Origin: Deltaproteobacteria bacterium
GTDB lineage: Bacteria > Desulfobacterota > Deferrimicrobia > Deferrimicrobiales > Deferrimicrobiaceae
Assembly (NCBI GenBank): GCA_021815305.1
Contig: JAKAHC010000001.1
Span: 186,001-250,000 of the forward strand
Direction: 5' to 3'
Length of the DNA stretch: 64,000 nt
In this document: positions 8,878-14,951 of the stretch, one piece after another
Numbering within the stretch: position 1 is the stretch's first letter
Layout: each line of letters begins with the position of its first letter
Made by a program: the position numbers and the translations under genes
The notes under the pieces: model-generated
What the model was told of the DNA's origin: nothing
The model's input: the letters and a program-made list of their open reading frames with translations, nothing else
Database searches by the model: none

Positions 8878-9006
8878 GATGCAGGACAGTCAAAGGAGCG
8901 CGGCGTTGACCAGCACCTCGCCGATCTCCTTTCGGTAGATGCCGAACGCAAGGACCGCCGCGGCCGAAACGGCCGTGAACAGGAAGGCGAGCGCACGCCC
9001 CTTCAT
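8866..9006 (-). CDS. Putative selenoprotein: CD1871A-like small CXXC membrane protein with UxxC
   Basis: Reads as 38 aa to a TGA at 8892-8890, but as 46 aa if that TGA is selenocysteine. The protein has one hydrophobic helix, then GIYRKEIGEVLVNAALL, then U-LSCIGVG and a stop (TGA, 8868-8866). As I recall the CD1871A family, its members end in ICLECIGIG after a YRGE-like helix, so the UGA falls exactly on the first Cys of the CxxC. ATG at 9006 has a strong AGAGGAGGA ribosome site. A SECIS-like hairpin follows. The gene lies between ccsB and the polyferredoxin; a thiol/selenol redox partner of that ferredoxin is plausible. The alternative is a Cys-less 38-aa peptide. Confidence 0.72.
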
Positions 9007-14624: not shown

Positions 14625-14951
14625 TCACCGGGGCTTCTTCCTTGCGTCCTGCAACGCTTGCGCGATCATTTCTTTGGCAGGCATCACCGATGCCCCGTAT
14701 GTCCGTCACATGAACCCGAAAACACGGATTCCGCGAACGGAAGGATCGATGTCGACGCCGTTCACCTGGACCGTCGGGCTCCCGAGGAACCTCGACCTGT
14801 CGGCATCTTCCTGGGATTCGATCAATACCTTCCGCACTTGGGCGGGGATGCCCGATTCGTCGACGCACTCCCGGATGCGTCCGATCGTATCCGGCGTCGC
14901 AGGGCAGCCGTGGGTGTACAGCACCGCGATGTCCAACGGTCTGTCGATCAT
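14625..14951 (-). CDS. Putative selenoprotein: thioredoxin-fold protein with C-terminal Sec
   Basis: 81 aa to a TGA at 14708-14706, or 108 aa if that TGA is selenocysteine at residue 82. The N-terminal half has the thioredoxin-like strand and site LYTHGCPATPDT, and RFLGSPTVQVNGVDI is the cis-Pro region. Relatives I know of continue as (F/S)-x-x-C-R-x-Y plus a C-terminal helix; here the same frame continues as F-M-U-R-T-Y and then PAKEMIAQALQDARKK to a TGA at 14627-14625. A SECIS-like hairpin follows the UGA. ATG at 14951 with GGGAG five bases upstream. Probable role: thiol or heavy-metal redox chemistry. The alternative is a truncated Cys-homologue. Confidence 0.74.
14680..14694 (-). promoter_or_regulatory. 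Candidate bacterial SECIS hairpin
   Basis: On the minus strand GGCATC-GGT-GATGCC is a perfect 6-bp stem with a 3-nt loop, the loop starting 17 nt after the in-frame TGA at 14708-14706. Spacing and the loop-first G fit the bacterial SECIS pattern. Its apical part (ATC GGT GAT) resembles that of the hairpin at 8862-8877 (GTC GGGT GAC). Confidence 0.65.

Follow-up and report, generated by a model that had tools for sequence, protein, structure and literature searches.

The window, a 64,000-nucleotide stretch of a genome from the Deferrimicrobiaceae (Desulfobacterota), contains on its minus strand a short gene that almost certainly encodes a selenoprotein, with an in-frame UGA at codon 82 that would be read as selenocysteine (Sec). 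The gene belongs to the DF family, represented by the NCBIfam profile NF049942; as this family has already been described, it is an added member rather than a discovery. What is new here is the occurrence of Sec forms in many lineages, a form with two Sec residues, the fusion of a DF domain to an arsenate reductase (ArsC) and the context of DF genes in mer and ars operons. Leaving the identity of the substrate aside, the reading of the product as a DF-family selenoprotein with a redox role is considered highly probable.

The open reading frame (ORF) comprises 81 codons (14951..14706, minus strand), starting with an ATG at 14951, immediately preceded by a Shine-Dalgarno-like GGGAG motif, and ending at a TGA at 14708..14706. 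Past this TGA the frame continues for 26 more sense codons, which translate as RTYGASVMPAKEMIAQALQDARKKPR, before reaching a second TGA at 14627..14625. When TGA is translated as U, the read-through product is MIDRPLDIAVLYTHGCPATPDTIGRIRECVDESGIPAQVRKVLIESQEDADRSRFLGSPTVQVNGVDIDPSVRGIRVFGFM-U-RTYGASVMPAKEMIAQALQDARKKPR, 108 amino acids in length with U at position 82. An ORF of 81 residues, with the frame remaining open for 26 codons beyond its TGA, had been described in a sequence-only reading of this DNA, and the same arrangement was found here, on the minus strand; the GGCATC-GGT-GATGCC hairpin it reported was also recovered with the same spacing, the UGA being followed by 11 nt and then the hairpin, such that the loop begins after 17 nt. 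Two genes flank the locus, neither of which has an NCBIfam match. The features of the gene are as follows:

14628..14951, minus strand: coding sequence of the predicted 108-residue DF-family selenoprotein, from the ATG to the last sense codon (translation with TGA as U; 104.1 bits against NF049942)
14625-14627, minus strand: terminal TGA of the DF coding sequence (translation)
14706..14708, minus strand: in-frame TGA, codon 82, predicted to be read as selenocysteine (TGA and Cys codons in 37 homologues; Sec machinery in the genome)
14679..14695, minus strand: SECIS-like hairpin with a 7-bp stem, GGGCATC/GATGCCT, including a closing G-U pair, and a GGT loop (fold and conservation in Sec homologues)
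14904..14906, minus strand: codon of Cys16 in the N-terminal C-P-A-T site, an invariant Cys that is replaced by Sec in L033 and L034 (alignment A2; double-TGA homologues)
14772..14783, minus strand: codons of Gly-Ser-Pro-Thr 57-60, of which G57, S58 and P59 are invariant (alignment A2)

The placing of Sec at residue 82, already put forward from the letters of this DNA alone, is supported by exchange between TGA and Cys codons, conservation of the downstream sequence, the hairpin and the Sec machinery of the genome. Among 37 homologues gathered by searches of the phylum and class, a count that includes the window gene, codon 82 is TGA in 26, TGC in seven and TGT in four, with no instance of TAA or TAG; these rows were chosen by their (U/C)-R motif, and the lack of TAA and TAG rests also on the counts of internal stops in the phylum and class searches. 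In these, internal TAG and TAA codons were found only in L056 (genome G297), the decayed pseudogene of a Cys-type DF protein, where each of these two codons occurs twice. The Cys/Sec exchange that had been proposed as a check is therefore seen across the 37 homologues, including two Cys-containing DF paralogues in the same genome as the window gene (C13:110055 and C13:104405, on contig C13); a separate scan of genome contigs returned one Cys relative only. Relatives had also been expected to carry C-R-(L/T)-Y at this place, and this motif proved to be right: the product aligns with Cys homologues such that its U82-R-T-Y corresponds to the (C/U)-R-x-Y motif of NF049942. The invariant columns of the 22-row alignment A2 are C16, G57, S58, P59, D67, C/U82 and R83, and the closest homologues share URTYGASVMP(A/T/S)(K/R)EMI downstream of the UGA.

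Since TGC and TGA are one base apart, and the family has Cys homologues, including two in the same genome, it might be imagined that a Cys codon (TGC or TGT) was turned into TGA by a recent nonsense mutation, or by a mistake in sequencing or assembly. This is extremely unlikely, as the same TGA codon is present in independent genomes, both of the same family (L054 and L057) and of other families, which share the same or a similar hairpin, and as few changes on the tree are needed to account for the grouping of the Sec rows. The window protein pairs with L054 (support 100/98) in a clade made up of seven Sec rows, the Cys rows falling outside it, and the Sec and Cys labels require a minimum of three changes on the tree, versus about 11 when the labels are shuffled. 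A Sec-only sister clade of 12 rows (L037-L041, L043-L046 and L048-L050; support 100/99) has motifs like GSPSVFINGKELQP...SURMF and scores about 36-52 bits against NF049942, under the cut-off of 70; the one member tested had no better NCBIfam match than this profile.

The UGA could instead be an ordinary stop, in which case the gene would encode an 81-residue protein ending before the last strand and helix, and the downstream sequence would be a relic. The window is GC-rich, and many frames in it stay open past their TGA by chance: of the 183 ORFs that end in TGA and are 60 amino acids or longer, 111 can be read through for 26 codons or more. Six of the 183 combine this with a stem of 6 bp or longer at the right place, and the five besides the DF gene appear to be spurious frames or normal gene ends. 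The observation of read-through and a hairpin in a single sequence is therefore insufficient by itself. The energy of the hairpin is likewise unexceptional, the fold of the 49-nt region being no better than those of dinucleotide shuffles (z = +0.24), and hairpin energy in a single sequence was accordingly rejected as proof of a SECIS element. It is the comparison with homologues that is decisive, and that lifts the DF read-through far above chance: the residues after the UGA show protein-level conservation between divergent genomes and can be aligned with those of Cys homologues, codon 82 is TGA or Cys throughout and never TAA or TAG, and a hairpin recurs at the same position. Termination at codon 82 is thus regarded as very improbable, and translation through it, with insertion of Sec, as the better account of the locus.

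Selection on the segment after the UGA was assessed from pairwise comparisons over 17 codons. Between the window gene and L054, pN is 0.129 and pS 0.575, and the corresponding values for L057 are 0.137 and 0.384; in more distant pairs, which are near saturation, the estimates are variable, with dN/dS up to 1.2. Because of this saturation, and because the hairpin lies inside part of the segment, these ratios are supportive rather than final. A lack of conservation after the TGA had been named as a finding that would tell against Sec, and the opposite was observed, with URTYGASVMP kept and pN well below pS in the two nearest pairs.

A hairpin directly follows the UGA and its place is conserved, the energy alone not being significant. 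Pairing in the 7-bp stem reaches 93.9% across seven Sec homologues of the same type, versus 41-57% when the partner is slid. The changes within the stem consist of one exchange of C-G for G-C (L032) and several one-sided G-U changes, and the covariation rests on these few changes, its score being reached by 24 of 500 shuffles. More distant Sec rows have different hairpins at similar places, and inspection of the Cys relative L051 revealed no such hairpin at the corresponding place.

The machinery for Sec insertion, the absence of which would likewise have counted against the proposal, is present in the same genome: SelA (538.7 bits, cut-off 268), SelB (301.9 bits, cut-off 242) and tRNA-Sec (74.1 bits, cut-off 47) all exceed their thresholds. 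Every genome with a TGA form that was checked has tRNA-Sec or SelA over the cut-off, with tRNA-Sec missed in G057 and G299, both of which have SelA. SelB bound to the hairpin directly after the UGA would deliver Sec-tRNA-Sec to codon 82.

Elsewhere in the window lies the other selenoprotein candidate of the sequence-only reading, which was partly checked: a short membrane protein gene at 8890-9006 on the minus strand would end ...VNAALL-U-LSCIGVG-stop if its TGA at 8892-8890 were read as U. The sequence GGGGTC-GGGT-GACCCC lies 3' of this TGA, and the gene precedes one for a NapH-like ferredoxin. With Cys in place of U, the product scores 27.3 bits against NCBIfam NF040920 (CD1871A family CXXC protein), under the cut-off of 32.

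Assignment to the DF family is based on the match of the read-through product to NF049942, named 'DF family (seleno)protein', at 104.1 bits (cut-off 70), with residues 8-99 covering profile positions 1-96 of 96. The product ended at the UGA scores 81.6 bits, such that read-through adds 22 bits. The deep-Sep study (Xiao & Zhang 2025, PMC12013277) reported a 'hypothetical protein DF' in Desulfosediminicola flagellatus, together with Cys homologues and no further TGA-containing ones, and a 2026 review (PMC13188914) lists a DF family with one Sec; the equation of 'hypothetical protein DF' with NF049942 rests on a table in this review. The likeness of the window protein to that protein consists of a full-length profile match above a curated cut-off and a Sec aligned with the family Cys. 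The two sets of observations differ in extent, with one Sec member in the earlier study and, here, Sec in numerous families of the phylum to which the window belongs, including two Sec residues in one lineage.

An AlphaFold model, built from a seven-sequence alignment, has a pLDDT of 83 and a pTM of 0.79, with its elements in the order strand-helix-strand-helix-strand...helix; the model is poor at residues 71-80, the ten before the Sec (pLDDT 56). The best matches of the model in the PDB are thioredoxins and SelW-like proteins (2obk, 2fa8), all weak (best E 3e-3, TM about 0.57), and a profile search of solved structures found the archaeal thioredoxins 1fo5 and 1nho. The protein is thus predicted to have a thioredoxin-like fold, though the fold matches are weak. 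The classical thioredoxin CxxC is absent, the site being C16-P-A-T with Thr at the position of the second Cys. The G-S-P at 57-59 resembles the cis-proline loop of thioredoxins, and we infer a corresponding role for its proline by analogy with that fold.

Several groups of known proteins resemble the DF protein in part. Thioredoxin_3 (PF13192) and proteins of the MTH895/ArsE type share the thioredoxin fold, the N-terminal Cys loop and the G-S-P loop, and PF13192 gives a weak profile match (21.9 bits, cut-off 24.8); unlike in these proteins, the DF site is C-P-x-T rather than CxxC, and the second reactive residue lies 66 residues further on, in U-R-x-Y. SelW-like proteins are also small and thioredoxin-like and are among the fold matches, but SelW has CxxU in its N-terminal loop (PMC13188914, Table 1), whereas the Sec of the DF protein is near the C terminus. 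Residues 22-82 weakly match DUF2703 (PF10865) at 16.9 bits; as this is below the gathering score of 23.6, no such assignment was made. A literature search for DUF2703 together with selenocysteine found nothing.

The C-P-x-T site means that the DF protein lacks the resolving Cys of a CxxC, and the only two invariant thiol or selenol positions are Cys16 and Sec82. In two genomes of one genus (G009 and G083), the homologues L033:1501-1788 and L034:1501-1788 have TGA in place of the Cys16 codon as well as at codon 82. A CGCT-GGA-AGCG stem-loop, as read from the sequence, lies at a similar distance after the N-terminal TGA in each of them; the predicted minimum-energy folds of these stem-loops are weak. 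The double-TGA homologues hint that both residues act together, and the comparison suggests that Cys16 and residue 82 work as a pair. Sec82 (in U-R-x-Y) would be placed to act with Cys16 (in C-P-x-T), either by forming a reversible selenenylsulfide or by jointly binding a soft metal or metalloid. Alternatively, the protein may be a selenoprotein without such a redox pair, with Sec82 acting as a metal ligand, or as the nucleophile of a reaction that has nothing to do with arsenic or mercury; the C-P-x-T site does lack the second Cys of the thioredoxin CxxC, and ars and mer clusters include neither the window copy nor the majority of Sec copies. This is possible, if somewhat doubtful, as the two positions are invariant, with Sec at each of them in one lineage, and as Cys relatives occur in mer and ars clusters, one of them fused to an arsenate reductase. 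The partnership of Cys16 and Sec82 is favoured with modest confidence.

The neighbourhoods of other family members point towards metal and metalloid resistance. In L065:4394-5107 (G000, contig C13), one of the two Cys paralogues, the DF domain forms the N-terminal part of a fusion with a thioredoxin-type arsenate reductase; its gene comes directly after one for ArsR, with ACR3 nearby. L064 has the same fusion. MerR and MerTP genes precede the other Cys paralogue on contig C13, and a similar MerTP neighbour accompanies the Cys form L078. Among the Sec forms, the double-Sec copy L072 is found among ACR3, ArsR and ArsE-like genes, and L067 lies near a gene that, by eye only, resembles an arsenate reductase. 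An ars or mer location was thus found for the genome's two Cys paralogues and for L072. No ars or mer cluster surrounds the window copy, and the genes around most of the other Sec copies are likewise unrelated to such clusters. The DF protein would most likely function as a thiol or selenol reductant, or as a thiolate carrier, in the detoxification of metals or metalloids (arsenic, mercury) or a related process. For the window copy, a role in arsenic or mercury handling is a plausible though tentative lead. The family as a whole might also constitute a redox module for metal(loid) detoxification, in which two distant sites are occupied by Cys/Cys, Cys/Sec or Sec/Sec and which works with arsenate reductase and the mer system, alongside the large Sec-only sister clade; this reading is somewhat doubtful.

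These observations extend the DF selenoproteins, previously reported from a single organism, to a broad range of organisms. Standard gene callers truncate the window protein just ahead of its probable catalytic residue. The double-Sec lineage offers, ready-made in nature, a way of testing which pair of residues cooperates, and the Cys paralogues offer the DF family a functional lead, in the handling of arsenic and mercury.
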